A stretch of DNA of 46,729 nucleotides, from positions 1 to 46,729 of the forward strand of contig NZ_JAQTZS010000023.1 in the NCBI RefSeq assembly GCF_028687635.1, given 5' to 3'. The notes beneath the pieces were generated by a model. It did not search any database. It was not told where the DNA came from and saw only the letters and a list, made by a program, of their open reading frames with translations. This DNA is from Malikia sp. Lineage in GTDB: Bacteria; Pseudomonadota; Gammaproteobacteria; Burkholderiales; Burkholderiaceae_C. Numbering within the stretch: the first letter of the stretch is position 1; the number at the start of each line of letters is the position of its first letter. Positions 24,972-38,855 of this stretch are shown here, in pieces. The translations under genes and the position numbers were made by a program.

Positions 24972-24987
24972 AGCATGAAATGTGCCA
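24972..24987 (-). promoter_or_regulatory. Sigma-54 promoter of amtB
   Basis: On the minus strand TGGCACATTTCATGCT matches TGGCACRNNNNTTGCW at all defined positions but one (A for T in the -12 element), with the invariant GG and GC correctly spaced. Transcription would start near 24961, leaving a leader of about 60 bases. A GCACCAA half-site near 24960 resembles half of an NtrC box. Confidence 0.75.
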
Positions 24988-25051: not shown

Positions 25052-25519
25052 TCAGGCGAGTTCGGCGATCAGCTCGATCTCGACGCAGGCGCCCAGCGGG
25101 ATCTGTGCCACGCCGAAGGCGCTGCGCGCGTGCGTGCCGGCGGCGCCGAAGACCGCGCCCAGCAGTTCCGAGCAGCCGTTGGTGACCAGATGCTGCTCGG
25201 TGAAGGTGGAAGTCGAGTTGACCAGGCTCATGACCTTGACGATGCGCTTGATGCCGTCGAGGTCGGTGCCGGCGGCGCGGCAGGCGTGCTCCAGCGTGCC
25301 CATCAGGTCGATGGCGATGGCGCGGGCGGCGGCCCGGCCTTGCTCGGTGGTCATGGTCAGGCCGAGCTGGCCAACCCAGGGCTTGCCGTCCTGCTTGGCG
25401 ATATGGCCGCTCAGGAAGACCTGCTTGCCGCTTTGCACATAAGGCAGATAGGCCGCGGCCGGCACGGCGACCGGGGGCAGGGTAATGTTCAGGGCTTGCA
25501 GTTGGTCGTAGACGCTCAT
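25052..25519 (-). CDS. RidA family (YjgF/YER057c/UK114) protein
   Basis: A 155-residue protein related to the enamine/imine deaminases that clear reactive 2-aminoacrylate. The start MSVYDQLQALNITLPP (ATG 25519) was chosen over upstream in-frame codons because it matches the YjgF-like N-terminus. The conserved core is VFLSGHIAKQDGKPWVGQLGLTMTTEQGRAAARAIAIDLMGTLEHA, then HARSAFGVAQIPLGACVEIELIAELA. The usual catalytic Arg of true RidA is represented by R132 in HARSAFGVAQIPLG. It is 52 bp downstream of the transglutaminase gene on the same strand and may be the last gene of that operon. amtB, next downstream, has its own promoter. Confidence 0.88.
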   Translation of the reverse strand: MSVYDQLQALNITLPPVAVPAAAYLPYVQSGKQVFLSGHIAKQDGKPWVGQLGLTMTTEQGRAAARAIAIDLMGTLEHACRAAGTDLDGIKRIVKVMSLVNSTSTFTEQHLVTNGCSELLGAVFGAAGTHARSAFGVAQIPLGACVEIELIAELA

Positions 25520-25571: not shown

Positions 25572-26522
25572 CTAGTCAGCGGCCGAGCCGCCGGGATCGG
25601 TCGCCGCTGGCGGACTGGAGCTGTCCGCGCACAGCTGCTCATACTCCTCGGCCGGCGCGACCGTGACCTCGACTTGCAGGCTGTGCGCGCCGCCGCCCTG
25701 GATCACGCCGCGCAGCGGCGAGATGTCGCCGAAGTCGCGGCCCAGCGTGAGCGTGACATAGTCCTCGCCGGGACAAGGGCTGCCGCAGCGGTCGTTGGTC
25801 GGGTCGAAGTCGTGCCAGCCGCCGTCGCACCAGACCGAGACCCAGGCGTGCGAGGCGTCGGCGCCGATCAGACGCGGCTGTCCCGGCGGGGGCTGCGTCA
25901 GCAGGTAGCCGCTGACATAGCGCGCGGCCAGCCCCAGGCTGCGCAGGCAGCCCAGCATGATGTGGGCGAAGTCCTGGCAGACGCCCTTGCCCTGCGCCAG
26001 GGCTTGCAGCGCCGGCGTGTTGACCTGGGTGCTGGCGGTCTCGTACTGCAGTTCCTGGTGGATCTTGCCGCAGAGTGCTTCGCAGGCGTCGAGCAGCGCA
26101 CGTTCGGGCGTGAAGACGGGGCGCGCGAAGGCGGCGAAGGCTTCGTCGAGCGGGACATAGGGCGAGGCGAACGTGAACTCGGTGGCCGGCTCGTAGCTGG
26201 CGCCGGCATGGTAGCGGAAACCGTCGCGCACCTGTTCCCAGGCCGGCGAGTCCGGCAGCGGGCCGGGCGGCGAGGTGCGCACCAGGCTGTCGGCGCTGAC
26301 GTCCAGCTTGTCATGCGCGCTTTGCAGCGCGAAGAAGCAGCGCCAGTTGCCGAAGGCGTCCAGACCCTGGAGCCACTGGGCCGGTTCGGGGCTGATGCTC
26401 AGCTGGTGCTCGATGACTTGCTGGCCCTGGCGTTCGAGCGGGCGCAAATGGGCCAGGTGCTGGGCCAGCAGCACCGGGGTCCGATAGCGGTAGCGGGTGT
26501 GGTGAATGATGCGCAGCAGCAT
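25572..26522 (-). CDS. Transglutaminase-like cysteine peptidase family protein
   Basis: A 316-residue cytoplasmic protein with N-terminal beta-domain (LLRIIHHTRYRYRTPVLLAQHLAHLRP) and a transglutaminase-fold catalytic domain. The catalytic triad is C182 (GKGVCQDFAH), H225 (DASHAWVSVW) and D240 (HDFDPTND). The family is genomically linked to circularly permuted ATP-grasp and alpha-E proteins and is predicted to cleave or transfer peptide amide bonds in that system. The adjoining upstream genes on the same strand, beyond an inserted TnpB element, are exactly these partners. ATG 26522 lies 3 bases past the element's right end; the only Shine-Dalgarno-like sequence (GGGGAGGA) is within the element. 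Confidence 0.92.
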   Translation of the reverse strand: MLLRIIHHTRYRYRTPVLLAQHLAHLRPLERQGQQVIEHQLSISPEPAQWLQGLDAFGNWRCFFALQSAHDKLDVSADSLVRTSPPGPLPDSPAWEQVRDGFRYHAGASYEPATEFTFASPYVPLDEAFAAFARPVFTPERALLDACEALCGKIHQELQYETASTQVNTPALQALAQGKGVCQDFAHIMLGCLRSLGLAARYVSGYLLTQPPPGQPRLIGADASHAWVSVWCDGGWHDFDPTNDRCGSPCPGEDYVTLTLGRDFGDISPLRGVIQGGGAHSLQVEVTVAPAEEYEQLCADSSSPPAATDPGGSAAD

Positions 26523-26680
26523 GGTTTGACATCCTCCCCGTCTTAAAGGACGGGGATTCCTCCCACGAGACGGCCATGCCCGGCCGCGAGAATGTTCCTG
26601 GCCGCGTTGACGTCCCGGTCGTGGACCGTGGCGCAGGCGCTGCAAGTCCATTCCCTTATTCCAAGACCGGCTCTACCTTT
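26500..26680 (-). ncRNA. Candidate omega RNA of TnpB element 2
   Basis: The right-end hairpin (CCCCGTC with GACGGGG, 26536-26555 on the plus strand) and the terminal GATGTCAA (26526-26533) mark the scaffold end. The guide would then begin at 26525 with ACCATGCTGCTGCGCATC, the first codons of the downstream transglutaminase gene. The 5' limit is arbitrary and expression is inferred from characterised TnpB systems. Confidence 0.45.
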
Positions 26681-27720
26681 TGGACTGCTGGCAGGGATGA
26701 CCCTGCAGCACGAGCAAGTCTGGGTCGAATACGCTTCGTTGACTACCTCGAAGACGATGCCGGCCTGATGGCTCTTGTACTCCAACATCGTCTTCAACAT
26801 GGTCCAGCCCGCGTCGAGCGTGGACTTGGCCATTCTTGTCTTGACCAGCTTGGCGCTGGCCACATCGCCCACGAAGAGGGCGGCGTTGTTCTGTACCAGT
26901 TGGGTGCTGAACTGGTGCAGCGCGTCCTTGCGCTGGTTGGCGATCCTGGCGTGGATCGCATTGACGCGGCGTTTCTTGCGCGCCCGTTGGGCGGTCGCCA
27001 GCTTGTGCTCATGCGCTCGGTACCAGCGGCCTTCGAGGCGCTGGCCGTCCGAGGTGGTGGCGCAGTCCTTGAGCCCCAGATCGATGCCGACGCAGGCGGT
27101 CGGGCCGGGGAGGCGCGGGCCAACGAGTTCCGGGATCTCGACGGCAACATTCAAGTACCAGCGGCCCCGGCGGTCCTCGCTGAACGAGCCGCTGCGGAGT
27201 TCGTAGTCCGCCAGGCCATAGCTGTCCCACAGGCTGAAATACTGCCCGGCGAACTGGATCCGACCGGCCTTGTAGCGGGCGTGACCGATCTTGAACGGTA
27301 TCCAGCCCAGCGAATATTTCGATGATTTCGGATTCGAGACGCGCCAGTTCAGGCGTGAGCGTTTGAACTGCCTGCGCCGGGTGGCGTATTCCGCGCAGAC
27401 CACCTGCACGGTGCCACTGCCGACCGAGATGTCCTCGCACTGGCTGAAGCCGGCGGTGAGCTTTTGCAGGTCGTAGCCCGAGAGGTAGCGCGGTTGGCCC
27501 GAGAAAGGGCGAGCGGCCTTGGCCGATACTGCGTTGATGTGGTTCCAGACCTGATTGACCTCGCGCGCCATCTGACGCAGCACGCGGGCGTGCTTGTCCT
27601 TGATGCGCAGCTGGAGGGTCTTGGTCGTGTTCACGCCGAATATCATAGAGCACATGACCGCGCAGCGGACCACGGGCCGTGCCGGCCTGATCGCTCGAAC
27701 CTCGGGCTGAACCCCGAGGC
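26526..27720 (-). mobile_element. IS200/IS605-type element carrying only tnpB (element 2)
   Basis: On the minus strand the left end has hairpins CCTCGGGG-TTCA-GCCCGAGG (27700-27719) and GGCCG-GCA-CGGCC (about 27679-27691). The right end has the GGAATCCCC...GGGGAGGATGTCAA arrangement shared with element 1. No tnpA and no target duplication. Removing it joins CTGAGCGGCAA (from 27731 to 27721) to ACCATG, restoring a short gap between the fused ATP-grasp gene and the transglutaminase gene. Confidence 0.75.
26543..27646 (-). CDS. tnpB: TnpB-family protein with rearranged RuvC-II glutamate
   Basis: A 367-residue protein of a TnpB lineage distinct from element 1 (N-terminus KTLQLRIKDKHARVLRQMAREVNQVWNHIN). 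RuvC-I D189 (CVGIDLGLKD) and RuvC-III D345 (HDRDVNAARNIL) are present, as is a zinc ribbon (C311/C314, C335/C338). At the RuvC-II position, where TnpB normally has I-E-D/N, this protein reads ALFVGDVASAKL, so the glutamate is replaced by G260. Glutamates E300 and E304 in GIVFEVVNEAYSTQTCSCC, just before the zinc ribbon, may replace it; TnpB lineages with a relocated catalytic glutamate have been reported. ATG 27646 is used, and GTG 27634 is possible. The stop codon TAA is inside the right-end hairpin loop. Confidence 0.85.
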   Translation of the reverse strand: MIFGVNTTKTLQLRIKDKHARVLRQMAREVNQVWNHINAVSAKAARPFSGQPRYLSGYDLQKLTAGFSQCEDISVGSGTVQVVCAEYATRRRQFKRSRLNWRVSNPKSSKYSLGWIPFKIGHARYKAGRIQFAGQYFSLWDSYGLADYELRSGSFSEDRRGRWYLNVAVEIPELVGPRLPGPTACVGIDLGLKDCATTSDGQRLEGRWYRAHEHKLATAQRARKKRRVNAIHARIANQRKDALHQFSTQLVQNNAALFVGDVASAKLVKTRMAKSTLDAGWTMLKTMLEYKSHQAGIVFEVVNEAYSTQTCSCCRVIPASSPKGRAGLGIREWTCSACATVHDRDVNAARNILAAGHGRLVGGIPVL

Positions 27721-27742
27721 TTGCCGCTCAGATCGGGTCAGG

Positions 27743-30280
27743 TCAGGTCATCAGGCTGGTGTTGACGCGGTCGGCGTGGCTGAAGTAGCGCTGCGCGAGC
27801 TGGTCGGACAGCGCCAGCATGGCGGATTCGATCTGGCGCATCAGCGGCAGCAGGGGCGGGTCCATCAGCGAATCCAGCGTCCAGTCGTCGGGATTGGGCA
27901 GCAGGTGCTTGAGCTTGATCCCGTCCTCCTTGGCGCGCGGCAGCTTGGACAGGCGCGAGCGCAGCGACGAGAGCACCCAGCCCAGCGAGCGCGGGTTGTC
28001 GCGGTTGACGATCAGCACGTCGAGCAAGGCGATCCGGTCGCGCCGCTGCTGGTACTGGAAGTGGAAGGTGATCGTGCTGTCGAACAGCGCCAGCACCGCC
28101 TCGAAACCGTCGTCATGGCGCAGGCAGCCGCTGTCCATCGCCAATGCCAGCGCGCCCGCCAGCGTGTGCAGGCGCTCGATATGGCGGCCGATGCTGAGCA
28201 TGCGCCAGCCGTCGTCGCGCACCATGCGGTCGGTCTGCTCGCCGGTGATGGCCGTCAGCAGCCCGCTGGCCTCGTTGAGCGCGTCGAGCGCGTCCTGTGG
28301 CGCGGAATCGGCATCGGCGCAGAGGATGGCCTGGCGTGCCGTGAACTGCGCGTCGACGCGCTCGGTCAGTGCCCGCAGGTCCAGCGACAGGCGCTCGCGT
28401 ACCTGGCCGGCGGCCAGGCGCAGGGCGCGCAGGTTGTAGCCCACGCTGCTGGTACCCGATTCCGCGCCGAGCTGTCTGATCAGCGCGCGCTCGAAGTCGC
28501 GTGGGGACGGTGCGGTTTTTGTCGTGCCCCAGGGCAGCAGGCCCTGGTGGCGCGCGGCCATGCCGAGCCAGTTCAGCAGGTTGGCGCTGTTGAGTTGTTC
28601 GCCCTGCAGCAGGCGCAGCGTCAGCCTGGCCAGCCGCAGGCTGTTGTCGGCGCGCTCGGTGTAGCGCCCGAGCCAGAACAGGTTCTCGGCCGAACGGCTG
28701 GAGACGATGCGTTTTTGCTGGGCGTGCGCGCGCGCGTTGTGTGCGTCGGACAGCAGGCTGGTGCGGTCGATCTCGCCCTCGGTCCGGACCCAGCAGTCGG
28801 CGCTGCTGCCGCCGCTTTGCATCGAGGCGATCGCCTGTCCGGGTGGCGCCATGCGCACCAGTCCGCCGGGCAGCACGCGCCAGGATCGCGGCCCGTCGCA
28901 GAGCGCGAACACGCGCAGCATGGCCGCGCGCGGCACGATCTCGCCCTCGCGCCAGGTCGGCTGCTGCGACAGCGGCAGGTAGGACTGCAGCGTGTACTGG
29001 TCGGGCTGGTCGCGGATGCGCTCGCGCAATCGGGCCATTTCCTTCGGGCTCAGCAGGGGGCCGATCTCGGTCTCGTTGCTGGCCCTGGGGTAGGTGCGCT
29101 TGACCACGCTGCGTTCGAGCCGGTGCAGGCCGTCCGCCAGGCTGGCGGCCTCGCCGCACCACCAGGTGGGCAGCGAGGGCAGGCTGAGTTCCTCGCCCAG
29201 CAGGCGCCGGCTGATCGCGGGCAGGAAACCCTGCAGCGCGGTCGATTCCAGTGGCGCCGATCCCGGTGCGTTGGCCAGCAGGACATGGCCGGCACGCACC
29301 GCCTGCATCAGGCCTGGCACGCCCAGCGCCGATTCCGAGCGCAGCTCGAGCGGGTCCAGCCACTCGTCGCCCAGGCGCTTGATCAGCACGTCGATCGGCT
29401 CCAGCCCGTGCAGGGTCTTGAGGTAGACGCGCTGGTCGCGCACGGTCAGGTCATTGCCCTCGACCAGCGGCAGGCCCAGGTAGCGCGCCAGGTAGGCATG
29501 CTCGAAATAGGTCTCGTTGTAGGGGCCGGGCGTCAGCAGGGCGATGCGCGCGTCGGCGCCCTTGGGGCTCAGCGCGCGCAGCCCCTGCATCAGCGCCTGG
29601 TAGCTCGCGCCCAGACGCTGCGCCTTCATCGCGTTGAAGGCGTTCGGGAACTGGCGGCCAATCGCGATGCGGTTTTCCAGCAGGTAGCCCAGGCCGGAGG
29701 GGGCCTGGGTGCGGTGCGAGACCACCCGCCAGCGGCCGTCGGGACCATGGGCCAGGTCGACCGCGACCACATGCAGCCAGGTGTCGCCAGGCGGTCGCAC
29801 CCCATGCATGGCGCGCAGGTAACCCGGGTGTCCCTGCACCAGGGCTGGTGGCAGCAGGCCCTCCCGCAGCAGCCGCTGCGGGCCGTAGAGATCGGCCAGG
29901 ATGGCGTTGAGCAGTCTTGTGCGCTGCAGCACGCCAGCCTCGATCCCGGCCCATTCGGTCGCCGGGATGATCAGCGGAAACAGGTCGACCGACCAGGGGC
30001 GCTGCAGGCTGTCTTGGTCGGCATAGACGTTGTAGGTCACGCCGTTGTCGCGCAACTGGCGCGCCACGCTCTGCTCGCGCCGGTCCAGTTCGGCCAGCCC
30101 CTCGCTGTCGAGATGGGAGAAGAACTCGGCCCAGTCTGGCGCCAGCTGGTCTGGCAGGTCCGCGCCGGCCAGGCCGCCGCGCAGTTCGTCGTGGTGGCCG
30201 GCGGAGACCGGACGCGCGAGCGCCAGCGCCTGCGGACAGGCGATGGCGGGTTCAGGCTTGGGCTGGAGGGTGTCGTTCAA
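27743..30280 (-). CDS. Fused circularly permuted ATP-grasp / alpha-E domain protein
   Basis: About 845 residues. Residues 30-515 form a circularly permuted type 2 ATP-grasp domain (COG2308 type: NGVTYNVYADQDSLQRPWSVDLFPLIIPATEW, then LTPGPYNETYFEHAYLARYLGLPLVEG). From about residue 525 an alpha-E domain follows, starting SSRSAENLFWLGRYTERADNSLRLARL. The ATP-grasp half probably forms amide bonds; alpha-E is a helical domain of unknown biochemistry. The stand-alone homologue at 36434 has a glycine-rich loop (VHGAGGYGMLVG) and an SSQGGGTKDTWV motif; here these read KRTYPRASNETEIG and SMQSGGSSADCWV. No ATG is suitable; TTG at 30280 or TTG at 30316 (with GGGGGCGAAG upstream) are the candidates. 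It follows the DUF2126 gene by about 80 bp or less. Confidence 0.9.
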   Translation of the reverse strand: MNDTLQPKPEPAIACPQALALARPVSAGHHDELRGGLAGADLPDQLAPDWAEFFSHLDSEGLAELDRREQSVARQLRDNGVTYNVYADQDSLQRPWSVDLFPLIIPATEWAGIEAGVLQRTRLLNAILADLYGPQRLLREGLLPPALVQGHPGYLRAMHGVRPPGDTWLHVVAVDLAHGPDGRWRVVSHRTQAPSGLGYLLENRIAIGRQFPNAFNAMKAQRLGASYQALMQGLRALSPKGADARIALLTPGPYNETYFEHAYLARYLGLPLVEGNDLTVRDQRVYLKTLHGLEPIDVLIKRLGDEWLDPLELRSESALGVPGLMQAVRAGHVLLANAPGSAPLESTALQGFLPAISRRLLGEELSLPSLPTWWCGEAASLADGLHRLERSVVKRTYPRASNETEIGPLLSPKEMARLRERIRDQPDQYTLQSYLPLSQQPTWREGEIVPRAAMLRVFALCDGPRSWRVLPGGLVRMAPPGQAIASMQSGGSSADCWVRTEGEIDRTSLLSDAHNARAHAQQKRIVSSRSAENLFWLGRYTERADNSLRLARLTLRLLQGEQLNSANLLNWLGMAARHQGLLPWGTTKTAPSPRDFERALIRQLGAESGTSSVGYNLRALRLAAGQVRERLSLDLRALTERVDAQFTARQAILCADADSAPQDALDALNEASGLLTAITGEQTDRMVRDDGWRMLSIGRHIERLHTLAGALALAMDSGCLRHDDGFEAVLALFDSTITFHFQYQQRRDRIALLDVLIVNRDNPRSLGWVLSSLRSRLSKLPRAKEDGIKLKHLLPNPDDWTLDSLMDPPLLPLMRQIESAMLALSDQLAQRYFSHADRVNTSLMT

Positions 30281-30360
30281 GATCGGAGGGCGCGCAGGCA
30301 GCTGGGACAGTGGCAAGTATGCCTGCTTCGCCCCCTGGCGCCCGCCGGTCGCTCGCGCTT

Positions 30361-33300
30361 TCAGCGCCTCAGGTCGAGCGTGAACGGGAACTCGCGGCTC
30401 GGCGTTGCCGGCTCCACCTGCATCCGGCCCGGCGTGTGCCCCAGCTGGAAGAAGCGCGCCAGCCGGCGGCTCTCGGCCTCGTAGGAGTTGACCGGGAAAC
30501 TGTCGTAGTTGCGCCCGCCCGGGTGCGTGACATGGTACTGGCAGCCGCCCAGCGAGCGCTGCATCCAGCTGTCGACGATGTCGAACACCAGCGGCGCGTG
30601 CACGCCGATGGTCGGATGCAGGCTCGACGGCGGATTCCAGGCCTTGTAGCGCACGCCGGCCACGTAGTCGCCCACGGTGCCGGTGTTGTGCAGCGGCAGC
30701 GCGCGGCCGTTGACGGTCAGACAATAACGGCTGTCGTTCCAGCCGCGCACGCGCACCTCGATGCGCTCCAGCGACGAATCCACATAGCGTGCCGTGCCGC
30801 CCGCGGTGCTTTCCTCGCCCATCACATGCCAGGGTTCGAGTGCGTTGCGCAAGGTCAGCTCGATGCCGCGCGTGGCCAGCTGGCCCACCAGCGGGAAGCG
30901 GAACTCGAAATGCGGCGCGAACCAGGCCCGGTCGAAGCGGTAGCCGAAGGCGGCCAGATCGTCGAGTACGTCGTCGAAGTCCATCCGCACGAAGGTCGGC
31001 AGCAGGAAGCGGTCGTGCAGCTCGGTGCCCCAGCGTGCCAGCTGGCCTACCTGGGGCTGCTGCCAGAAGCGGGCCACCAGCGCGCGCAGCAGCAGCTGCT
31101 GGGCGATGCTCATGCGGGCGTGTGGCGGCATCTCGAAAGCGCGCAGCTCCAGCAGGCCGAGCCGGCCCGTGCTGCTGTCGGGCGAATACAGCTTGTCGAT
31201 GCTGAACTCGCTGCGATGCGTGTTGCCGGTGATGTCGATCAGGATGTTGCGCAGCGTGCGGTCGACCAGCCAGGGCGGCATCGATTCACCGTGCAGTTCG
31301 CGGTTGCGCGCGATCTGTTCCAGCGCGATCTCCAGCTCGTAGAGCTGGTCGTTGCGCGCCTCGTCGACCCGCGGCGCCTGGCTGGTCGGCCCGATGAACA
31401 TGCCGCTGAACAGGTAGCTCAAGGAGGGGTGGTTGTGCCAGTAGGCCAGCAGGCTGGCCAGCAGCTCGGGCTTGCGCAGGAAGGGCGAGTCCGAGGGCGT
31501 CGCGCCGCCCATCACGAAATGGTTGCCGCCGCCGGTGCCGGTGTGGCGGCCATCGGTCATGAACTTCTCGGCACAGAGGTGGGTCTGGTGCGCGGCCTCG
31601 TAGAGGAACTCGGTGCGCTCGACCAGCTCGGGGAAGCTGCTGGCCGGGTGGATGTTGACCTCGATCACGCCCGGGTCGGGGGTGACTTGCAGCAGCTTGA
31701 GGCGCGGGTCGCGCGGCGGCGGGTAGCCTTCGAGCACGATCTTGACCTGGAGCTCGGCGGCCGTGGCTTCGAGCGCGGCGAGCAGGTCGAGGTAGTCCTC
31801 CAGGCGCTGCAGCGGCGGCATGAAGACGTAGAGCTGGCAGCTGGCGCCGCCGTTGCTGACCTCGGCCTTGGGGCCGTTGGCGCGCTGCGGGTCGCGCGCC
31901 TCGACGCACAGCGCGGTGCGCGTGAGCCAGCGCGCCGATTCGTGGCGGGTTGGCAAGCGGGTCGCGTCGGCCGGCGTCAGACCGCTGGCCTGATCCGTGC
32001 TGGTGCCCTTGCCGGCGCCAGCCTCGTGCCAGCCGTATTCGCGGTTTTGCATCGCGACCGTGCCACCTTCGGCAAAGCCGCCGCCGACCTGGTGCGGGGC
32101 GTACTGGTGCAGGAAGGTCGCGCCGGCCGGCAGGGCGTCGCGCGGCACGCTCGGGTCCTGCTCGATGTGATGCGGGTAGTCGCGCGCCGCGATCCAGGGC
32201 AGCGAGTCCAGCGGCAGCCGGTAGCCCATCGGCGAGTCGCCCGGGATCAGGTACATGCGCTCGTCGCGCAGGAACCAGGGGCCGCTGCCCCAGCGCGGAC
32301 CGCTCGGCTCGACATCATGCCTGGCCTGCAGCGGCAGCACATAGCCCACCGCCGCTTCCAGCCCCTGGCTGAAGACGCGGCGCAGGCGGGCGCGCTCGAG
32401 CTCGTCGCCGAGCCTGGAGTCGAACGGGTCGACGTTGATCGGCAGCTTGCGCTCGCGCCACAGGTAGTACCAGCTGTCCTCGTAGCCTGGCGTGATGAAG
32501 TCGGCGGCCAGTCCGAGCTTGCGCGCCAGCGCCTGGGTGAAGCGCCGCGCGTCCTCGGCCGTATAGCGGGCCGGGTCGCGCTCGTCGGCGAACAGCGACG
32601 GGTCGTGCCAGATCGGCTCGCCGTCGGCGCGCCAGTGGAGCGACAAGGCCCAGCGCGGCAGCTGCTCGCCCGGGTACCACTTGCCCTGGCCCAGGTGCAC
32701 GAAGCCGCCCGCGCCGTACTGCTCGCGCAGGCGACCGAGCAGCTCGGTGGCGTAGTCGCGCTTGGTGGGGCCGAGCGCGTCGGTGTTCCATTCGGCCGCG
32801 TCACGGTCGCGCGTCGCGACATAGGTCGGCTCGCCGCCCATGGTCAGGCGCACGTCGCCCGCGACCAGGTCCTGGTCGACCTGCTCGCCCAGCGCCAGGA
32901 TGGCCTGCCACTGCTCGTCGCTGTAGGGTCGGGTCACGCGCGGCGACTCATGGATGCGCGTGATCTGCATCTGGTGCTCGAACGAGACTTCGCACTCGTC
33001 GAGCGCGCCATCGATCGGCGCGGCGCTGGAAGGCTGGGGCGTGCAGGCCAGCGGGATATGGCCTTCGCCGGCCAGCAGGCCCGAGGTCGGGTCGAGTCCG
33101 ATCCAGCCCGCGCCCGGCAGGAAGACCTCGCACCAGGCGTGCAGGTCGGTGAAGTCGACCTCGGTGCCGCTCGGGCCATCGACGGCCTTGACATCGGGGG
33201 TGAGCTGGATCAGGTAGCCCGAGACGAAGCGCGCCGCCAGGCCCAGCTGGCGCAGCAGCTGCACCAGCAGCCAGCCGGTGTCGCGGCAGGAGCCGCTGCG

Positions 33301-33825
33301 CTTTTTCAGCGTGTCCTCGGGCGTCTGCACGCCTGGCTCCATCCGGATGGTGTACGAGATGTCCTGCTGCAGCTTCTGGTTGATGCCGACCAGGAAGTCG
33401 ATCGTGCGCTGCTCCTTCAGGTCCACCTGTTTCAGGTAGGCCGCCAGCAGCGGCGTCAGCTCGGACTTGATGCGGTAGGGCGCGAGCTCGGCTTCGAGTT
33501 CGGGGGCATAGCCGAACGGGAAGTTCTCGGCGCTGGGTTCGAGGAAGAAGTCGAACGGGTTGTGCACCGCCATCTCGACCACCAGGTCGACCGTGACCTT
33601 GAACTCGCGCGTCGGCTGCGGGAACACCAGCCGGGCCTGGTAGTTCGCGAACGGGTCCTGCTGCCAGTTGATGAAATGCCCGGCCGGCTCTATCGTCTGC
33701 GAATACGACAGAACCTTGGTGCGACTGTGCGGCGCCGGGCGCAGGCGCACGACCTGGGGTCCCAGATTGACCAGGCGGTCGTAGCGGTAATGGGTGACGT
33801 GATTCAGGGCAACATGGATCGCCAT
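30361..33825 (-). CDS. Transglutaminase-DUF2126 giant protein
   Basis: 1154 residues, no signal peptide. The N-terminal 290 residues are a transglutaminase-like module with beta-domain (MAIHVALNHVTHYRYDRLVN) and triad C180 (RSGSCRDTGWL), H229 (DLHAWCEVFLPG) and D245 (IGLDPTSG). The remaining 850 residues are DUF2126, with MGGEPTYVATRDRD, HLGQGKWYPGEQLPRWALSL, NFHVMGGAT-like NHFVMGGATPSDSPFLRKP and DITGNTHRSEFSIDKL; these fit a glutamine-synthetase/amidoligase-like enzyme. Such proteins are encoded with CP-ATP-grasp and alpha-E genes in predicted peptide-ligation or -modification operons. It is the first gene of the minus-strand operon, with a sigma-54-like promoter at 33901-33916. ATG 33825 fits the family N-terminus. 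Confidence 0.93.
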   Translation of the reverse strand: MAIHVALNHVTHYRYDRLVNLGPQVVRLRPAPHSRTKVLSYSQTIEPAGHFINWQQDPFANYQARLVFPQPTREFKVTVDLVVEMAVHNPFDFFLEPSAENFPFGYAPELEAELAPYRIKSELTPLLAAYLKQVDLKEQRTIDFLVGINQKLQQDISYTIRMEPGVQTPEDTLKKRSGSCRDTGWLLVQLLRQLGLAARFVSGYLIQLTPDVKAVDGPSGTEVDFTDLHAWCEVFLPGAGWIGLDPTSGLLAGEGHIPLACTPQPSSAAPIDGALDECEVSFEHQMQITRIHESPRVTRPYSDEQWQAILALGEQVDQDLVAGDVRLTMGGEPTYVATRDRDAAEWNTDALGPTKRDYATELLGRLREQYGAGGFVHLGQGKWYPGEQLPRWALSLHWRADGEPIWHDPSLFADERDPARYTAEDARRFTQALARKLGLAADFITPGYEDSWYYLWRERKLPINVDPFDSRLGDELERARLRRVFSQGLEAAVGYVLPLQARHDVEPSGPRWGSGPWFLRDERMYLIPGDSPMGYRLPLDSLPWIAARDYPHHIEQDPSVPRDALPAGATFLHQYAPHQVGGGFAEGGTVAMQNREYGWHEAGAGKGTSTDQASGLTPADATRLPTRHESARWLTRTALCVEARDPQRANGPKAEVSNGGASCQLYVFMPPLQRLEDYLDLLAALEATAAELQVKIVLEGYPPPRDPRLKLLQVTPDPGVIEVNIHPASSFPELVERTEFLYEAAHQTHLCAEKFMTDGRHTGTGGGNHFVMGGATPSDSPFLRKPELLASLLAYWHNHPSLSYLFSGMFIGPTSQAPRVDEARNDQLYELEIALEQIARNRELHGESMPPWLVDRTLRNILIDITGNTHRSEFSIDKLYSPDSSTGRLGLLELRAFEMPPHARMSIAQQLLLRALVARFWQQPQVGQLARWGTELHDRFLLPTFVRMDFDDVLDDLAAFGYRFDRAWFAPHFEFRFPLVGQLATRGIELTLRNALEPWHVMGEESTAGGTARYVDSSLERIEVRVRGWNDSRYCLTVNGRALPLHNTGTVGDYVAGVRYKAWNPPSSLHPTIGVHAPLVFDIVDSWMQRSLGGCQYHVTHPGGRNYDSFPVNSYEAESRRLARFFQLGHTPGRMQVEPATPSREFPFTLDLRR

Positions 33826-33900
33826 CGGTGACTTTCTGGGATGGTGGACAGGGAGGACTATGGACCTTATCGATCGCTTGAACCTTGTTCTTTGCATCCT

Positions 33901-33916
33901 AGCAAGTAACGCGCCA
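33901..33916 (-). promoter_or_regulatory. Sigma-54-type promoter of the DUF2126 operon
   Basis: On the minus strand TGGCGCGTTACTTGCT matches the TGGCACRNNNNTTGCW consensus except for one base (G for A). GG and GC are correctly spaced. The predicted start is near 33890, giving a leader of about 65 bases. The element is almost identical to the one at 36384-36399 that precedes the other ATP-grasp operon. Confidence 0.72.
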
Positions 33917-33934
33917 GTTTCCATGACAAGGCGC

Positions 33935-33948
33935 TTGATTTCCATCAA
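33935..33948. promoter_or_regulatory. FNR-like palindrome upstream of the DUF2126 promoter and comEC
   Basis: On the minus strand TTGAT-GGAA-ATCAA is a perfect match to the FNR/ANR box (TTGAT-N4-ATCAA), extended to CTTGAT/ATCAAG. Its centre is about 51 bases upstream of the predicted sigma-54 start and 14 bases separate it from the comEC ATG on the other side. Binding by an FNR-type regulator is inference. Confidence 0.5.
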
Positions 33949-33962
33949 GGATTGATTGGCCC

Positions 33963-36347
33963 ATGATCATCGTCTTGCTGGGCGCGGTCGCGGGCGTTGC
34001 CTTGCAGCTGTTGCAGGCCGGGCTCTGGGCGCCGCGCGCCTACCAGGGCCTGATTTTTCTTGGGCTGCTGCTGGTGCTGGCGGCCTGGGGTGGCGGTCGG
34101 GGGACTCGCCGGCGCCTGCTGCTGGCGACACTGGCGGCCACCGCGCTGATGGCCGGCTCGACCGGGCTGCGCGCGCTCGACCGCCTGGGGCAGATCCTGC
34201 CGGCCGCGCTGGAGGGACAGGACCTGCTGCTGGTCGGCCATGTCGCGGGTTTGCCGCGCCCGGGGGACAAGGGCGTGCAGTTCGAGTTCGAGGTCGAGTC
34301 GGCGCGCTGGAACGGCCAGCCGGTCGCGATCCCCAGGCATGTCCAGCTGGGCTGGTGGAGCCGGCCCGCCGAATCCAAGGCTGACCTATCCGCTGCCGCT
34401 GAGTTGCCGGCCGTTCTGCCCGGGCAGCGTTGGGAGCTGGTCGCGCGTCTGCAGCGCCCGCACGGCCTGGCCAATCCGCAGGGTTTCGATCTGGAGCTCT
34501 GGCTGTGGGAGCAAGGCCTTGGGGCGACCGGATCGGTGCGTCTGGGGCGAGGGCAGCCGGCGCCCCAGCTGTTGCCGGGGCGGGTCAGGGTGCCGGTGGC
34601 ACGGGCACGCCACGCGGTGCGCGCCGCCATCCAGGGCGCGGTGCCGGACGCCCGTGCCGCTGGCGTGCTGGCCGCGCTGGTGGTGGGCGACCAGGCCTCC
34701 ATCGACAGCGCCGACTGGGAGGTGTTTCGCCTGACCGGGGTCGCGCATCTGGTCAGCATCTCGGGGCTGCATGTGACGATGTTCGCGCTGTTCGCTTCGG
34801 TCCTGGTCGGTCGGCTCTGGCGCGCGCTGGCCCGGATCTGGCCCGGCCTGCTGCTGTGGCTGCCAGCTGGCAGCGCGGCGGCCATCGGCGGCCTGGCGCT
34901 GGCCTTTGCCTATGCGCTGTTCGCCGGCTGGGGGGTGCCGGCCCAGCGCACCTTGCTGATGCTCGCCTGTCTGACCTGGCTGCGCCTGAACGGCCTGCGC
35001 TGGCCCTGGCCGGTGCTGCTGCTGGCCGTCATGGTCGCGGTGCTGCTGCTCGACCCCTGGGCGCTGCTGCAGGCGGGCTTCTGGCTCAGCTTCGTCGCGG
35101 TCGGCGTGCTGCTGGCCTCGTCCTGGCTGGGTCAGGTCGAGCCGGGCGGCGCGCGCGCCTGGTTGGTCGGACTGCTGCGTACCCAGGCCATCGTGAGCGT
35201 GGCGCTGGCGCCGCTGACGCTGTGGTGCTTCGGCCAGTTCTCGCTCGTGGGCCTGTTGGCCAATCTGGTCGCCGTGCCCTGGGTCACCGCCGTGATCACG
35301 CCGCTGGCCATGCTGGGCCTGCTCTGGTCGCCACTGTGGCGGCTGGCGGCCTGGGGCGTGCAGGCCATGAATGCCGGCCTGGAGTGGCTGTCCCGGCTGC
35401 CCTGGGCCGCGTTCGAGCGTCCCGAGTTGCCGCCAGCGCTGGCGCTGTTCGCGCTGGCCGGCGGCGTGCTGCTGGTGCTGCGCCTGCCCGGGCGGTCCCG
35501 CGCCTGGGGTCTGTTGCTGGCCTGGCCCTTGCTGGCCTGGGCGCCCGCGCGACCGCAGGCCGGGCAGTTCGAGCTGATGGCGCCCGATATCGGGCAGGGC
35601 AGCGCCATCGTGGTGCGCACGGCGCGCCACACCCTGGTGCATGACACCGGACCGGGGCAGGGGACGGCCAGCGCGGCGCGGCGGGTGCTGCTGCCGCTGC
35701 TGCGCGCCGGCGGCGACCGGCTTGATGCGCTGGTCGCCAGCCATGACGACCTCGACCATGTCGGCGGCCTGCCCGAGCTGCTGCGCCAGCACCCGCGCGC
35801 CGAGCTCTGGGCCTCCTATGACACGCGGCGCGACGCGGGCCGCCTGGCGCGCACCTGCGAGGCGGGGCAGCAATGGTCCTGGGATGGCGTGAATTTCGAG
35901 TGGCTGCACCCGCGCGCCGAGGACCATGCGGCGGGGCTGACTGACAACGCGCTGTCCTGCGTGCTGCGGGTCACCAGTGCCGATGGCCGGGTGGCGCTGC
36001 TGACGGGTGACATCACGGCACGCGAGGAAGCGCGACTGCTGCGCGACCAGCCCGGCTTGCGCGCCGACCTGCTGCTCGCGCCACACCACGGCAGTTCGAC
36101 CTCGTCGAGCGAGGCCTGGCTCGACGGGCTGCGCCCGGGCCGGGTCGTGATCCAGTCGGGTCATCTGAACCGCTTCCAGCACCCCGCGCCCGAGGTGCTG
36201 CGGCGCTACCGGGCGCGCGGCATTCCCTGGACCGACAGCCCGGCCTGTGGCGCGGCCAGCTGGCGCAGCGCGCAGCCGGCCGACATCCAGTGCTGGCGCC
36301 ATGCGCGCCCGCGCTACTGGCAGGCTGGGGCCCGGGCTGGCAATTGA
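33963..36347 (+). CDS. comEC: DNA internalization competence protein ComEC/Rec2
   Basis: A 794-residue polytopic inner-membrane protein that forms the channel for single-stranded DNA uptake during natural transformation. The N-terminal soluble DUF4131/OB-like part spans about 30-185. The Competence domain follows, with RAAGVLAALVVGDQASIDSADWEVFRLTGVAHLVSISGLH and many helices. The C-terminal metallo-beta-lactamase-like domain has SHDDLDHVGG (about 592), LTGDI and APHHGSSTS. The motif set is complete, so it should be functional. It is flanked by the two amidoligase gene sets and starts 137 bp from the divergent DUF2126 gene. Confidence 0.95.
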   Translation: MIIVLLGAVAGVALQLLQAGLWAPRAYQGLIFLGLLLVLAAWGGGRGTRRRLLLATLAATALMAGSTGLRALDRLGQILPAALEGQDLLLVGHVAGLPRPGDKGVQFEFEVESARWNGQPVAIPRHVQLGWWSRPAESKADLSAAAELPAVLPGQRWELVARLQRPHGLANPQGFDLELWLWEQGLGATGSVRLGRGQPAPQLLPGRVRVPVARARHAVRAAIQGAVPDARAAGVLAALVVGDQASIDSADWEVFRLTGVAHLVSISGLHVTMFALFASVLVGRLWRALARIWPGLLLWLPAGSAAAIGGLALAFAYALFAGWGVPAQRTLLMLACLTWLRLNGLRWPWPVLLLAVMVAVLLLDPWALLQAGFWLSFVAVGVLLASSWLGQVEPGGARAWLVGLLRTQAIVSVALAPLTLWCFGQFSLVGLLANLVAVPWVTAVITPLAMLGLLWSPLWRLAAWGVQAMNAGLEWLSRLPWAAFERPELPPALALFALAGGVLLVLRLPGRSRAWGLLLAWPLLAWAPARPQAGQFELMAPDIGQGSAIVVRTARHTLVHDTGPGQGTASAARRVLLPLLRAGGDRLDALVASHDDLDHVGGLPELLRQHPRAELWASYDTRRDAGRLARTCEAGQQWSWDGVNFEWLHPRAEDHAAGLTDNALSCVLRVTSADGRVALLTGDITAREEARLLRDQPGLRADLLLAPHHGSSTSSSEAWLDGLRPGRVVIQSGHLNRFQHPAPEVLRRYRARGIPWTDSPACGAASWRSAQPADIQCWRHARPRYWQAGARAGN

Positions 36348-36357
36348 TCCTGATCAA
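36344..36357. promoter_or_regulatory. FNR-like palindrome overlapping the comEC stop
   Basis: TTGAT-CCTG-ATCAA is a perfect match to TTGAT-N4-ATCAA. It overlaps the comEC stop codon and its centre is about 60 bases upstream of the start predicted for the promoter at 36384-36399. A very similar palindrome lies in front of the other operon. Confidence 0.5.
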
Positions 36358-36383
36358 GGATCCTGTGAACGTGGCTCAGGGAC

Positions 36384-36399
36384 TGGCCCGTTACTTGCT
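36384..36399 (+). promoter_or_regulatory. Sigma-54-type promoter of the ATP-grasp/alpha-E operon
   Basis: TGGCCCGTTACTTGCT fits TGGCACRNNNNTTGCW with one mismatch (C for A). Including its flanks, ACTGGCSCGTTACTTGCTAR is shared with the promoter at 33901-33916. The predicted start is near 36410, 24 bases before the ATG. Confidence 0.75.
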
Positions 36400-36433
36400 A
36401 ACATGAAACTGCCAACATAAACGCGAGCCTCCC

Positions 36434-37882
36434 ATGAGCCGACACCAATTCGACGAAATGTATGCCGCACCCGATCAGGTCCGCGGGCATTACCTCCAAT
36501 ACGCGCGCTGGCTCGCCGAGCAGCCTGACGATGTGATGCGGGCTCGGCGCGAGGAAGCCGAGCTGATCTTCCGCCGCGTCGGCATCACCTTCGCGGTCTA
36601 CGGCGCCAAGGACGAGGACGGCGCGGGCACCGAGCGCCTGATCCCGTTCGACCTGATCCCGCGCGTGATTCCGGCAGCCGAATGGCGCTCGATGGAAAAG
36701 GGCCTGGAGCAGCGCGTCACGGCGCTGAACCGCTTCCTGCACGACATCTACCACGAGCAGGAGATCCTGCAAGCCGGCATCGTGCCGCGCGAGCAGATCG
36801 AGGGCAACGCGCAGTTCCGCCCCGAGATGGTCGGCGTCGATGTCCCGGGCGGCATCTACTCGCATATCTCGGGCATCGACATCGTGCGCGCGCCGGTGCC
36901 GGGCGGTCAGGGCGAGGCCGAGTACTACGTGCTGGAGGACAACCTGCGCGTGCCCAGCGGCGTGAGCTACATGCTGGAAGACCGCAAGATGATGATGCGG
37001 CTCTTTCCCGAGCTGTTCAGCCAGAACCGGGTCGCGCCGGTCGCGCATTACCCCGATCTGCTGCTCGATACGCTGCGCTCGGTCAGCCCCGCGCACACGG
37101 TCAATCCGACCGTGGTGGTGCTGACCCCGGGCATGTACAACAGCGCCTATTTCGAGCACGCCTTCCTGGCGCAGCAGATGGGCGTCGAGCTGGTCGAGGG
37201 CCAGGACCTGTTCGTCAAGGACGGCTTTGTCTGGATGCGCACCACCCGAGGCCCCAAGCGCGTGGACGTGATCTACCGCCGCGTCGACGACGACTTCCTC
37301 GATCCGCTGGCCTTCCGCTCCAGCTCGACCCTGGGCTGCGCCGGCCTGCTCGACGTCTACCGCAAGGGCAACGTAACGCTGTGCAACGCGATCGGCACCG
37401 GCGTGGCGGACGACAAGTCAATCTACCCCTATGTGCCGCGGATGATCGAGTTCTACCTCGGCGAGAAACCGATCCTGAAGAACGTGCCGACCTATCTGGG
37501 CCGCAAGCCCGATGAGCTCAAGTACATCCTGGCCAACCTCAAGGACCTGGTGGTCAAGGAGGTGCATGGCGCCGGCGGCTACGGCATGCTGGTGGGGCCG
37601 GCCTCCACCCAGGCCGAGATCGAGGAGTTCCGCCGCGCCGTGATCGCCAAGCCCGAGGGCTATATCGCCCAGCCCACGCTGAGCCTGTCGAGTTGCCCGA
37701 CCTATGTCGAGCGCGGCATCGCGCCACGCCACATCGACCTGCGCCCCTTCGTGCTGTCGGGGCAGAAGGGGGTGCAGACGGTGCCGGGTGGCCTGACCCG
37801 CGTCGCGCTGAAGGAGGGCTCGCTGGTGGTGAACTCGTCGCAAGGCGGCGGCACCAAGGACACCTGGGTACTGGAAGACTGA
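36434..37882 (+). CDS. Circularly permuted type 2 ATP-grasp protein
   Basis: A 482-residue cytoplasmic enzyme of the COG2308 family, predicted to ligate an amine to a carboxylate through an acyl phosphate. Visible signatures are ITFAVYGAKDEDG..ERLIPFDLIPRVIPAAEW, HDIYHEQEILQAGIVPREQI, GVDVPGGIYSHISGIDIVR, YYVLEDNLRVPSGVSYMLEDR and TPGMYNSAYFEHAFLAQQMGVELVEG. The nucleotide-binding lysine (about 375) and glycine-rich loop lie in VVKEVHGAGGYGMLVG, and the C-terminal NSSQGGGTKDTWV is intact. It is followed after 13 bp by the alpha-E gene. Substrates are unknown; the partner families suggest peptide-like products. Confidence 0.94.
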   Translation: MSRHQFDEMYAAPDQVRGHYLQYARWLAEQPDDVMRARREEAELIFRRVGITFAVYGAKDEDGAGTERLIPFDLIPRVIPAAEWRSMEKGLEQRVTALNRFLHDIYHEQEILQAGIVPREQIEGNAQFRPEMVGVDVPGGIYSHISGIDIVRAPVPGGQGEAEYYVLEDNLRVPSGVSYMLEDRKMMMRLFPELFSQNRVAPVAHYPDLLLDTLRSVSPAHTVNPTVVVLTPGMYNSAYFEHAFLAQQMGVELVEGQDLFVKDGFVWMRTTRGPKRVDVIYRRVDDDFLDPLAFRSSSTLGCAGLLDVYRKGNVTLCNAIGTGVADDKSIYPYVPRMIEFYLGEKPILKNVPTYLGRKPDELKYILANLKDLVVKEVHGAGGYGMLVGPASTQAEIEEFRRAVIAKPEGYIAQPTLSLSSCPTYVERGIAPRHIDLRPFVLSGQKGVQTVPGGLTRVALKEGSLVVNSSQGGGTKDTWVLED

Positions 37883-37895
37883 GGAAAGACTGATC

Positions 37896-38855
37896 ATGCT
37901 GTCGAGAACCGCCGACCATTTGTTCTGGATGTCGCGCTACACCGAGCGCGCCGAAAACACCGCCCGCATGCTGGACGTCAACTACCAGACCGCGCTGCTG
38001 CCACAGTCGGCCGCGGTGGCCAAGCTGGGCTGGGAGGGGCTGCTGCGCATCAGCGAGCTGATGCCTGCCTACGAGTTCCTGCACGGCGAGGTCAACAGCA
38101 AGGATGTGCTGGACTTCATGGTGCGCGACGAGTCCAATCCGTCGAGCATCCTGTCCTGCCTCAAGGCCGCGCGCGAGAACGCGCGCGCCGTGCGCGGCGC
38201 GCTGCCGACCGAGGTCTGGGAAACGATCAACCACACCTGGCTCAAGCTGCTCCAGCTGCTCAAGGGCAAGGACTTCGAGCGCGACCCGGCCAAGTTCTTC
38301 GACTGGGTCAAGCACCGCTCGCATCTCTCGCGCGGGGTCGCGATCGGCACCATGCTGCGCGACGAGGCCTTCTACTTCTACCGCATGGGCACTTTCCTGG
38401 AGCGGGCCGACAACACGGCGCGGCTGCTCGATGTCAAGTTCCACGCGGTCGAGAGCGACTTCTACGGCGCCGCCTCCGAGCAGGACCAGGAGTACGATTT
38501 CTACCACTGGAGCGCGATCCTGCGCAGCGTCTCGGCGTTCGAGGTCTACCGCAAGGTCTACCGCGACGTGATCACCCCTGAGCGCGTGGCCGAGCTGCTG
38601 ATCCTGCGCGCCGACATGCCGCGCAGCCTGCACGCGAGCCTGCAGGGCGTGGTGACCAACCTGGGCCGGGTCAGCAACTCGGTCTCGGGCGAGACCGAGC
38701 GCCGCGCCGGCAAGATGCTGTCCGACCTGCGGTACGGCAGCCTCGACGAGATCATGGAGACCGGCCTGCACGCCTACCTGACGCAGTTCCTCGACCGCGT
38801 CAACGAGCTCGGCGGGCGCATCAGCCGCGACTTCCTGGTGCCCGCGTCGGTCTGA
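37896..38855 (+). CDS. Alpha-E domain protein
   Basis: A 319-residue all-helical cytoplasmic protein of the alpha-E (COG2307, DUF403) family, with the signature MLSRTADHLFWMSRYTERAENTARMLDVNYQ at the N-terminus and RMGTFLERADNTARLLDVKFHA in the middle; both halves repeat an R.-ERA-N-AR motif. It has no known catalytic motif. Alpha-E is always linked to CP-ATP-grasp, either adjacent as here or fused as in the protein at 27743-30280, and may be a partner or carrier-binding subunit. It is convergent with the mltB-like gene, with a 14 bp gap and no terminator visible. Confidence 0.93.
   Translation: MLSRTADHLFWMSRYTERAENTARMLDVNYQTALLPQSAAVAKLGWEGLLRISELMPAYEFLHGEVNSKDVLDFMVRDESNPSSILSCLKAARENARAVRGALPTEVWETINHTWLKLLQLLKGKDFERDPAKFFDWVKHRSHLSRGVAIGTMLRDEAFYFYRMGTFLERADNTARLLDVKFHAVESDFYGAASEQDQEYDFYHWSAILRSVSAFEVYRKVYRDVITPERVAELLILRADMPRSLHASLQGVVTNLGRVSNSVSGETERRAGKMLSDLRYGSLDEIMETGLHAYLTQFLDRVNELGGRISRDFLVPASV

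Follow-up and report, generated by a model that had tools for sequence, protein, structure and literature searches.

What chemistry is encoded by the two sets of ligase-like and transglutaminase-fold genes that flank the DNA-uptake gene comEC in Malikia sp., and when is it called upon? The locus lies in a stretch of 46,729 nucleotides, hereafter the window, from a genome of 3.23 Mb that is 96% complete. The original prediction regarded it as a candidate for an undescribed biochemical system; the families are, however, already known as an Anbu/amidoligase system (PMC5666114, PMC6376114). The same prediction held that no product had been described for these families, and we likewise found none in open-licence PMC papers. 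Our analysis leads us to lean toward a dispersed Anbu-associated amidoligase system that is induced by nitrogen limitation and carries out peptide amide ligation and hydrolysis.

Two operons of amidoligase-type genes flank comEC

Profile searches of the window place a DUF2126 operon on the minus strand and a split operon on the plus strand, with comEC between them (Table 1). The gene families and their order, as first proposed, are borne out by the coordinates and Pfam matches, as are the two transglutaminase-fold enzymes, both of which match PF08379 and PF01841. The two Alpha-E modules also stand, and are the only Alpha-E matches in the genome; the separate Alpha-E gene starts 13 nt downstream of the CP-ATP-grasp gene. 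Judged by eye, the N-termini carry no obvious signal peptides, in agreement with the earlier reading. A search elsewhere in the genome for a third transglutaminase to serve the split set gave no clear orthologue.

Table 1. Positions of genes and promoter elements in the window
Feature	Coordinates	Strand	Basis
Ammonium transporter	23697..24899	-	PF00909
Sigma-54-like site of ammonium transporter, TGGCACATTTCATGCT	24972-24987		pattern match
RidA-like	25052..25519	-	PF14588
Small transglutaminase-fold enzyme, 316 aa	25572..26522	-	PF08379, PF01841
TnpB transposon, approximate ends	26526..27740	-	7 paralogues
Predicted pseudo CP-ATP-grasp/Alpha-E fusion, 845 aa, TTG start assumed	27743..30280	-	PF14403, PF04168
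Transglutaminase-DUF2126, 1154 aa	30361..33825	-	PF08379, PF01841, PF09899
Sigma-54-type promoter of DUF2126 operon, TGGCGCGTTACTTGCT	33901..33916	-	pattern + conservation in relatives
comEC, intact	33963..36347	+	TIGR00361
Sigma-54-type promoter of split operon, TGGCCCGTTACTTGCT	36384..36399	+	pattern + conservation in relatives
CP-ATP-grasp ligase (separate), 482 aa, predicted active	36434..37882	+	PF14403/PF04174
Alpha-E protein (separate), 319 aa	37896..38855	+	PF04168, E 1.7e-100

The arrangement around comEC is conserved beyond chance, the order DUF2126(-) comEC(+) ATP-grasp(+) recurring in 32 of the 80 best-matching loci from a pool of at least 596, a set that is not a random draw and in which many contigs are cut. 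A complete TnpB reading frame (26543-27673, minus strand), missed in the first reading, separates the fused gene from the gene for the small transglutaminase. It is IS200/IS605-like, scoring 226.5 bits against NF040570 (cut-off 100) and carrying the TNB domain PF07282, and the element is absent in M. spinosa.

An intact ligase and a predicted pseudo-ligase

The separate CP-ATP-grasp protein is a close homologue of PDB 3n6x (E 1.8e-213), the putative glutathionylspermidine synthase Mfla_0391. Its ExN motif (E168-D169-N170) and the Gly-rich loop residues G379, G381, G382, Y383 and G384 are kept in 81/81 split homologues, that of the window included, and with these catalytic motifs intact it is predicted to be an active enzyme. 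Among 33 homologues of the fused protein, by contrast, none keeps the E and N of ExN, and the loop glycines survive in few (G379 in 0, G381 in 5, G382 in 11 and G384 in 2). The fused ATP-grasp/Alpha-E protein is thus a predicted pseudo-ligase whose ATP-grasp domain is probably inactive in catalysis. Its fold matches 3n6x, to which it is 33% identical in the fold alignment, and glutathione synthetases. A sequence search of the PDB with Alpha-E gave no match.

We predict that DUF2126 is a second amidoligase, of another family than ATP-grasp. In the protein that carries it, the transglutaminase residues Cys180/His229/Asp245 are invariant in 30 aligned sequences, and the small transglutaminase has the corresponding catalytic-type residues Cys182/His225/Asp240. 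The AF2 model of the DUF2126 protein is of low confidence (pLDDT 61); a fold search with this model returned significant matches only to the transglutaminase domain, and the weak Pfam matches of DUF2126 include none to any ligase. The two ligases originally counted must be recounted: the fused ATP-grasp, which lacks key catalytic residues, leaves the list and DUF2126, as a predicted amidoligase, enters it. Nor are the two gene sets twin copies of one ligase in fused and split form, since an intact ATP-grasp on one side faces a pseudo-ATP-grasp beside DUF2126, whose predicted ligase type is a different one. Going by Pfam family descriptions, the amidoligase systems that Iyer et al. described in 2009, a study cited in PMC5666114 and PMC6376114, reportedly comprise the same components, namely active and inactive CP-ATP-grasp, Alpha-E and a transglutaminase fused to a ligase domain.

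Matched sigma-54-type promoters precede both operons

Both operons are preceded by near-identical -24/-12 sigma-54-type promoters, TGGC[C/G]CGTTACTTGCT. The exact pattern occurs at 13 sites in the 3.23 Mb genome, two of which are these promoters, compared with 3 sites for a reversed-pattern control. In related loci, a sigma-54 score of at least 13 of 15 is reached upstream of the ATP-grasp gene in 55/79 cases (one of the 80 loci was omitted for having too little upstream DNA) and upstream of DUF2126 in 38/43 (two of 45 rows, L022 and L071, were removed as paralogue matches), whereas only 2.8% of random stretches score as high. Four of the five DUF2126 genes that fall below 13 are co-directional with the split operon, and the fifth scores 12.9. 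Six other genes of the same loci reach this score in 4/238 cases in total: comEC 1/59, Alpha-E 0/80, the fused gene 2/37 (after removal of 17 paralogue matches from 54 rows), SLT 1/25, TgpA 0/22 and RidA 0/15. Spacings other than N4 between the -24 and -12 elements yield 0-4/79 for ATP-grasp and 0-2/43 for DUF2126. A good site is also present in 20/29 loci sampled across the phylum (30 loci, own genome left out), against a background of 3%. The matched, conserved promoters before both operons are a new observation; a search of open-licence PMC papers gave no prior report of sigma-54 sites with these genes in Comamonadaceae.

RpoN and NtrC are both encoded in the genome. The best NtrC boxes before the two promoters score 6.8 and 6.2 of 10.4, neither of them good; in relatives, boxes show only a slight excess ahead of the ATP-grasp gene (20/90 versus a 4.5% background) and hardly any ahead of DUF2126 (4/56, in rows not filtered for paralogues). 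NtrC would be the probable activator of both operons here.

Published expression data point in the same direction, with one exception. In Pseudomonas putida, PP_2688 and PP_2685 are higher on nitrate than on ammonium by about 4 log2 (PMC8050072), and PP_2686-2688 rise 11-15 fold in the wild type under nitrogen limitation (PMC7801951). In Burkholderia cenocepacia, I35_5080-5083 are listed as common NtrC and sigma-54 targets, with log2 changes of -6.0 to -9.4 in an ntrC mutant (PMC5491218). These NtrC data fit the sigma-54 sites. The exception is that PP_2686-2688 are still induced 14-20 fold, about as in the wild type, in a P. putida rpoN mutant (PMC7801951 Table 2), which speaks against strict sigma-54 dependence in that species. 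Expression of the Anbu operon is described as unchanged under several other conditions in PMC5666114. Overall, the sigma-54 sites and the published induction support the link to nitrogen limitation and predicted peptide or amide chemistry suggested at the outset.

Two known gene sets resemble this locus. The Anbu operon (for example in P. putida, PP_2685-PP_2688, and in Yersinia bercovieri) comprises ATP-grasp, Alpha-E, transglutaminase and Anbu; it shares the same families and the adjacent ATP-grasp and Alpha-E genes, and the P. putida set is induced by nitrogen limitation. Here, unlike in that operon, Anbu is found elsewhere in the genome, after mutS, and no transglutaminase gene follows Alpha-E in the plus-strand set. 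The B. cenocepacia H111 genes I35_5080-5083 encode DUF404/407, DUF403, a transglutaminase and a large transglutaminase protein, presumably DUF2126, and match our locus in having ATP-grasp, Alpha-E and two transglutaminase proteins. Those genes form a single cluster, whereas here two divergent operons surround comEC, each with its own sigma-54-type promoter.

Anbu is unlinked and co-occurs with Alpha-E

A search with PF00227 gave only HslV, suggesting that Anbu was absent from the genome; a genuine Anbu query then located it (G000:C31:6171-6902, E 1.8e-71) outside both operons, after mutS on another contig. Thr1, Asp17 and Lys32 are present, as read by eye from the translation. Anbu lies behind mutS in 17/20 loci inspected, a non-random choice from 161 Anbu genomes, and a search of open-licence PMC papers, judged by their titles, gave no prior report of this linkage. 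Anbu, being unlinked, shows no sigma-54 site upstream (0/20 at a score of at least 12.5), which counts against co-regulation of all parts.

Among 200 genomes of the family, Alpha-E is present in 160/161 that carry Anbu and in 131/131 that carry DUF2126, and 24/25 genomes without Alpha-E also lack Anbu. Conversely, 15/175 Alpha-E genomes have no Anbu match and 44 have no DUF2126. This asymmetry points to ATP-grasp and Alpha-E together as the core, with the other proteins acting on or beside their product.

Possible functions of the system

In the amidoligase reading that we favor, nitrogen shortage would cause NtrC and sigma-54 RNA polymerase to start both operons from the matched promoters. 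The split ATP-grasp, partnered by Alpha-E, would couple an amine or amino acid to a carboxylate at the expense of ATP, presumably through acyl-phosphate chemistry like that of glutathione-synthetase-like ATP-grasps. DUF2126 would act as the second ligase alongside the catalytically dead ATP-grasp/Alpha-E protein, which might serve as a scaffold or substrate binder. The Cys-His-Asp enzymes of the transglutaminase fold would cut or trim the peptide-like product, as might Anbu, a putative Thr hydrolase expressed separately with mutS. The net role would most likely be to process or recycle peptides or amines for their nitrogen, rather than to store nitrogen. In favor of this reading, the Yersinia ATP-grasp homologue releases phosphate from ATP (PMC6376114). 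Against it, pull-downs in PMC6376114 gave no specific interaction among Anbu-operon proteins and no peptidase activity of Anbu was detected there, while another group considers Anbu a protease and is skeptical of peptide synthesis (PMC5666114).

A rather less likely possibility is that, during nitrogen starvation, the ligases tag proteins with a peptide or amino acid, with Anbu and the transglutaminase-fold enzymes removing the tag or degrading the tagged proteins. Tagging has been proposed for the Anbu operon in PMC6376114, and Anbu is lost jointly with Alpha-E despite being unlinked in most loci inspected. Yet some Alpha-E genomes have no Anbu match (see above), Anbu here is outside the sigma-54 operons, and a casual look noticed no tag candidate gene. 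The absence of detected Anbu peptidase activity in PMC6376114 also speaks against tagging.

Scavenging, in which amines or small peptides are glutamylated for catabolism as in gamma-glutamyl-polyamine or methylamine routes, strikes us as doubtful. It would suit the sigma-54-type promoters, the nearby ammonium transporter gene, which is likewise preceded by a sigma-54-like site, and the fold kinship to glutathione and glutathionylspermidine synthetases, but it leaves the Anbu link unexplained, no amine oxidase or transporter is found among the identified operon genes, and the DUF2126 hit to the glutamine-synthetase-type gamma-glutamylmethylamide synthetase falls short of significance (E 1.1). 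The nitrogen-rich storage peptide originally envisaged, although compatible with several ligase-like proteins at one locus, is very improbable, because the promoters and published data indicate nitrogen starvation, when storage is not expected.

A functional tie to DNA uptake can be virtually dismissed: in 65 of the best 80 loci (of at least 596) comEC precedes the ATP-grasp gene by no more than 800 nt, but it matches within about 1.5 kb of that gene in only 2/29 phylum-wide loci, rarely has a sigma-54 site of its own, and is interrupted in M. spinosa, where the ligase genes keep essentially their full length. The RidA-like gene, tentatively assigned to the minus-strand set before, adjoins comEC with the ligase genes on the other side in 6/20 stretches (L102, L104-L106, L117, L118). 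We considered RidA and comEC as system parts and rejected both on this synteny; each is probably a positional neighbor.

Implications

Anbu is a proposed proteasome ancestor, and the open-licence PMC papers searched give no substrate either for it or for its ligase partners. Mycobacterium tuberculosis presumably carries genes of these same families. More speculatively, and in our estimation improbably, the system could place an amide mark, unrelated to ubiquitin and Pup, on proteins or peptides during nitrogen starvation: two ligases that differ in fold, together with a pseudo-ligase as scaffold, would write it under sigma-54 control, and the erasers, transglutaminase-fold hydrolases and Anbu, would stand partly outside that control, Anbu being expressed with mutS. 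The twin sigma-54-type promoters indicate ammonium limitation as the condition under which to look, and the pseudo-ligase prediction points to the ATP-grasp that merits assay. Genomes missing only Anbu or only DUF2126 offer ready natural deletions.

Sigma-54-Type Promoters of Both Operons

Sigma-54-type sites precede both the ATP-grasp gene of the split operon (TGGCCCGTTACTTGCT) and the DUF2126 gene (TGGCGCGTTACTTGCT), and the pattern TGGCNCGNNNNTTGCW occurs 13 times genome-wide, compared with 3 times for its reversed control. Among the best 80 of at least 596 related loci, a best site scoring at least 13 of 15 lies upstream of 55 of 79 ATP-grasp genes and 38 of 43 DUF2126 genes. This score is reached by 2.8% of random stretches and upstream of six other genes from the same loci in 4 of 238 cases (paralogue rows were removed for this count and for that of DUF2126). 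Spacings N2, N3, N5 and N6 yield 0, 0, 4 and 0 of 79 sites for ATP-grasp and 0, 0, 0 and 2 of 43 for DUF2126. Four of the five DUF2126 genes scoring below 13 are co-directional with the split operon, and the remaining one scores 12.9. Phylum-wide, a site of at least 13 precedes 20 of 29 ATP-grasp genes, against a background of 3%.

RpoN and NtrC genes are both present in the genome. The ammonium transporter gene carries its own sigma-54-like site (score 13.6). This site lies ∼9 kb from one of the other promoters and ∼11 kb from the second, a hint that nitrogen-response elements cluster in this region. In three Hydrogenophaga loci (L017, L019, L024), NtrC-box-like palindromes (GGCACC-N5-GGTGCG and variants) are situated ∼150 nt ahead of the sigma-54 site. 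In the window, NtrC boxes are at most putative.

Published expression mostly fits nitrogen regulation. Expression of P. putida PP_2685 and PP_2688 is consistent with nitrogen control (PMC8050072), and PP_2686-2688 are up 11–15 fold in the wild type; contrary to this reading, they are still up 14–20 fold in an rpoN mutant (PMC7801951). In B. cenocepacia, I35_5080-5083 are named as targets shared by NtrC and sigma-54, the large transglutaminase protein among them (PMC5491218), and an RpoN paper (PMC13207237) includes a Bradyrhizobium site upstream of a CP_ATPgrasp gene. Thus, nitrogen control of this gene family was already known, while no prior report of paired sigma-54 promoters on two divergent operons was found in the open-licence PMC literature. 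The amidoligase system is probably nitrogen-regulated.

A Predicted Pseudo-Ligase in the Fused Protein

The window is contig C15 of a genome of 3.23 Mb (96% complete), and domain searches uphold the domain assignments of the original prediction for its amidoligase genes. Glutathione-synthetase-type ATP-grasps bind Mg through an ExN motif, and inactive CP-ATP-grasp forms are, according to Pfam, often fused to Alpha-E. E168-D169-N170 and the glycine-rich loop (G379, G381, G382, Y383, G384) are invariant in the split ATP-grasp across 81 aligned proteins. In contrast, the 33 fused proteins carry S (26), G (4) or A (3) at position E168 and R in every case at N170, and the loop is lost (G379 in 0, G381 in 5, G382 in 11 and G384 in 2); K375 is K in 29. 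In a fold search, a model of the fused protein best matches 3n6x (E 5e-31), with glutathione synthetases next. Alignment and sequence reading place Cys-His-Asp in both transglutaminase-fold proteins. Because the catalytic motifs are kept in split and lost in fused proteins, one of the two ATP-grasps is listed as intact and the other as a pseudo-ATP-grasp; a single predicted ligase of the DUF2126 type, together with two each of Alpha-E and transglutaminase-fold proteins, completes the inventory read from sequence. A transglutaminase gene lies immediately 3′ of the split Alpha-E gene in 19 of the best 80 of at least 596 relatives; the window has none there.

Features of the Malikia genome (window unless a contig is named)
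Feature	Position	Strand	Remark
DUF2126 protein	start 33825	-	
Fused ATP-grasp/Alpha-E protein	start 30280	-	TTG start
TnpB element	∼26526-27740		
Small transglutaminase	start 26522	-	
RidA	start 25519	-	
Ammonium transporter sigma-54-like site	24972-24987		
Second, distant TnpB match	16524-17192	+	37% identical
anbu	C31:6171-6902		unlinked to the window's operons

Neighbors and Insertions

RidA had been named as a possible member of the system. It is probably a positional neighbor, since in 6 of 20 stretches it still adjoins comEC where the ligase genes sit across comEC.

The fused gene and the small transglutaminase gene are separated by a complete TnpB gene, which the original prediction overlooked. 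Its catalytic Glu is presumably at the alternative position (NEAYSTQ), as in some TnpBs. The genome holds 41 TnpB-like matched stretches; 11 (this copy and ten others) form a group of 81–100% identity, each aligned over at least 320 residues, two with a stop. Judged from seven paralogues and from M. spinosa, whose site is empty and has the two flanking genes only 5 nt apart, the element runs from ∼2 nt past the fused gene's stop to ∼3 nt ahead of the transglutaminase ATG, such that neither adjacent reading frame is disrupted. Its right end, GGGGAGGATGTCAA, by chance resembles a ribosome-binding sequence.

Other loci are interrupted as well. The M. spinosa comEC is broken near codon 247 by a ∼29.5 kb Tn7/Tni-like island (L155/L156, G167:C57 ∼6428-35921) encoding TniB, TniQ, IrrE/M78, Mrr (weak match) and PIN-TPR-GreABC. 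In genome G051, an 8.4 kb cassette (L100:2050-10500), on the strand opposite to the interrupted operon, separates DUF2126 from the fused gene and encodes one protein with a caspase domain (PF00656) and one of the Tubulin_2 family (PF13809).

Anbu and Its Dependence on Alpha-E

Anbu, classically the fourth gene of the set, is encoded apart from the others in this genome; its protein is 49% identical to a same-class Anbu encoded downstream of its own ATP-grasp operon. The gene shares 4 nt with the end of mutS (L159:5076-8971). Among 20 hand-chosen, non-random loci from 161 Anbu genomes, mutS is directly upstream on the same strand in 17 (gap −3 to 72 nt); the other three have mutS at 847 nt, no mutS in the stretch, and a classical operon, respectively. 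No sigma-54 site scoring at least 12.5 precedes anbu in any of the 20 loci, and no earlier report of the mutS-anbu arrangement was found in the open-licence PMC literature.

Of 200 family genomes, 118 have Alpha-E, Anbu and DUF2126, 42 Alpha-E and Anbu, 13 Alpha-E and DUF2126, 2 Alpha-E alone, 1 Anbu alone and 24 none, absence meaning no match at the thresholds used, with some genomes incomplete. Anbu co-occurs with Alpha-E (Fisher p 9e-20, uncorrected for kinship). Tables read by hand contain nine genera with both Alpha-E-positive and Alpha-E-negative genomes. Anbu switches with Alpha-E in seven (g5, g22, g25, g26, g41, g70, g94; the g41 genome lacking Alpha-E is only 70% complete), and in g73 and g86 it is missing from both kinds alike. 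This switching argues that the association does not merely reflect deep ancestry. In the overall pattern Alpha-E is the hub, with Anbu and DUF2126 each depending on it and not on one another.

The amidoligase genes form a conserved enzyme system of a kind already known, here in dispersed form. What these findings chiefly offer is a guide to functional tests: the timing, the protein and the natural deletion strains to choose.
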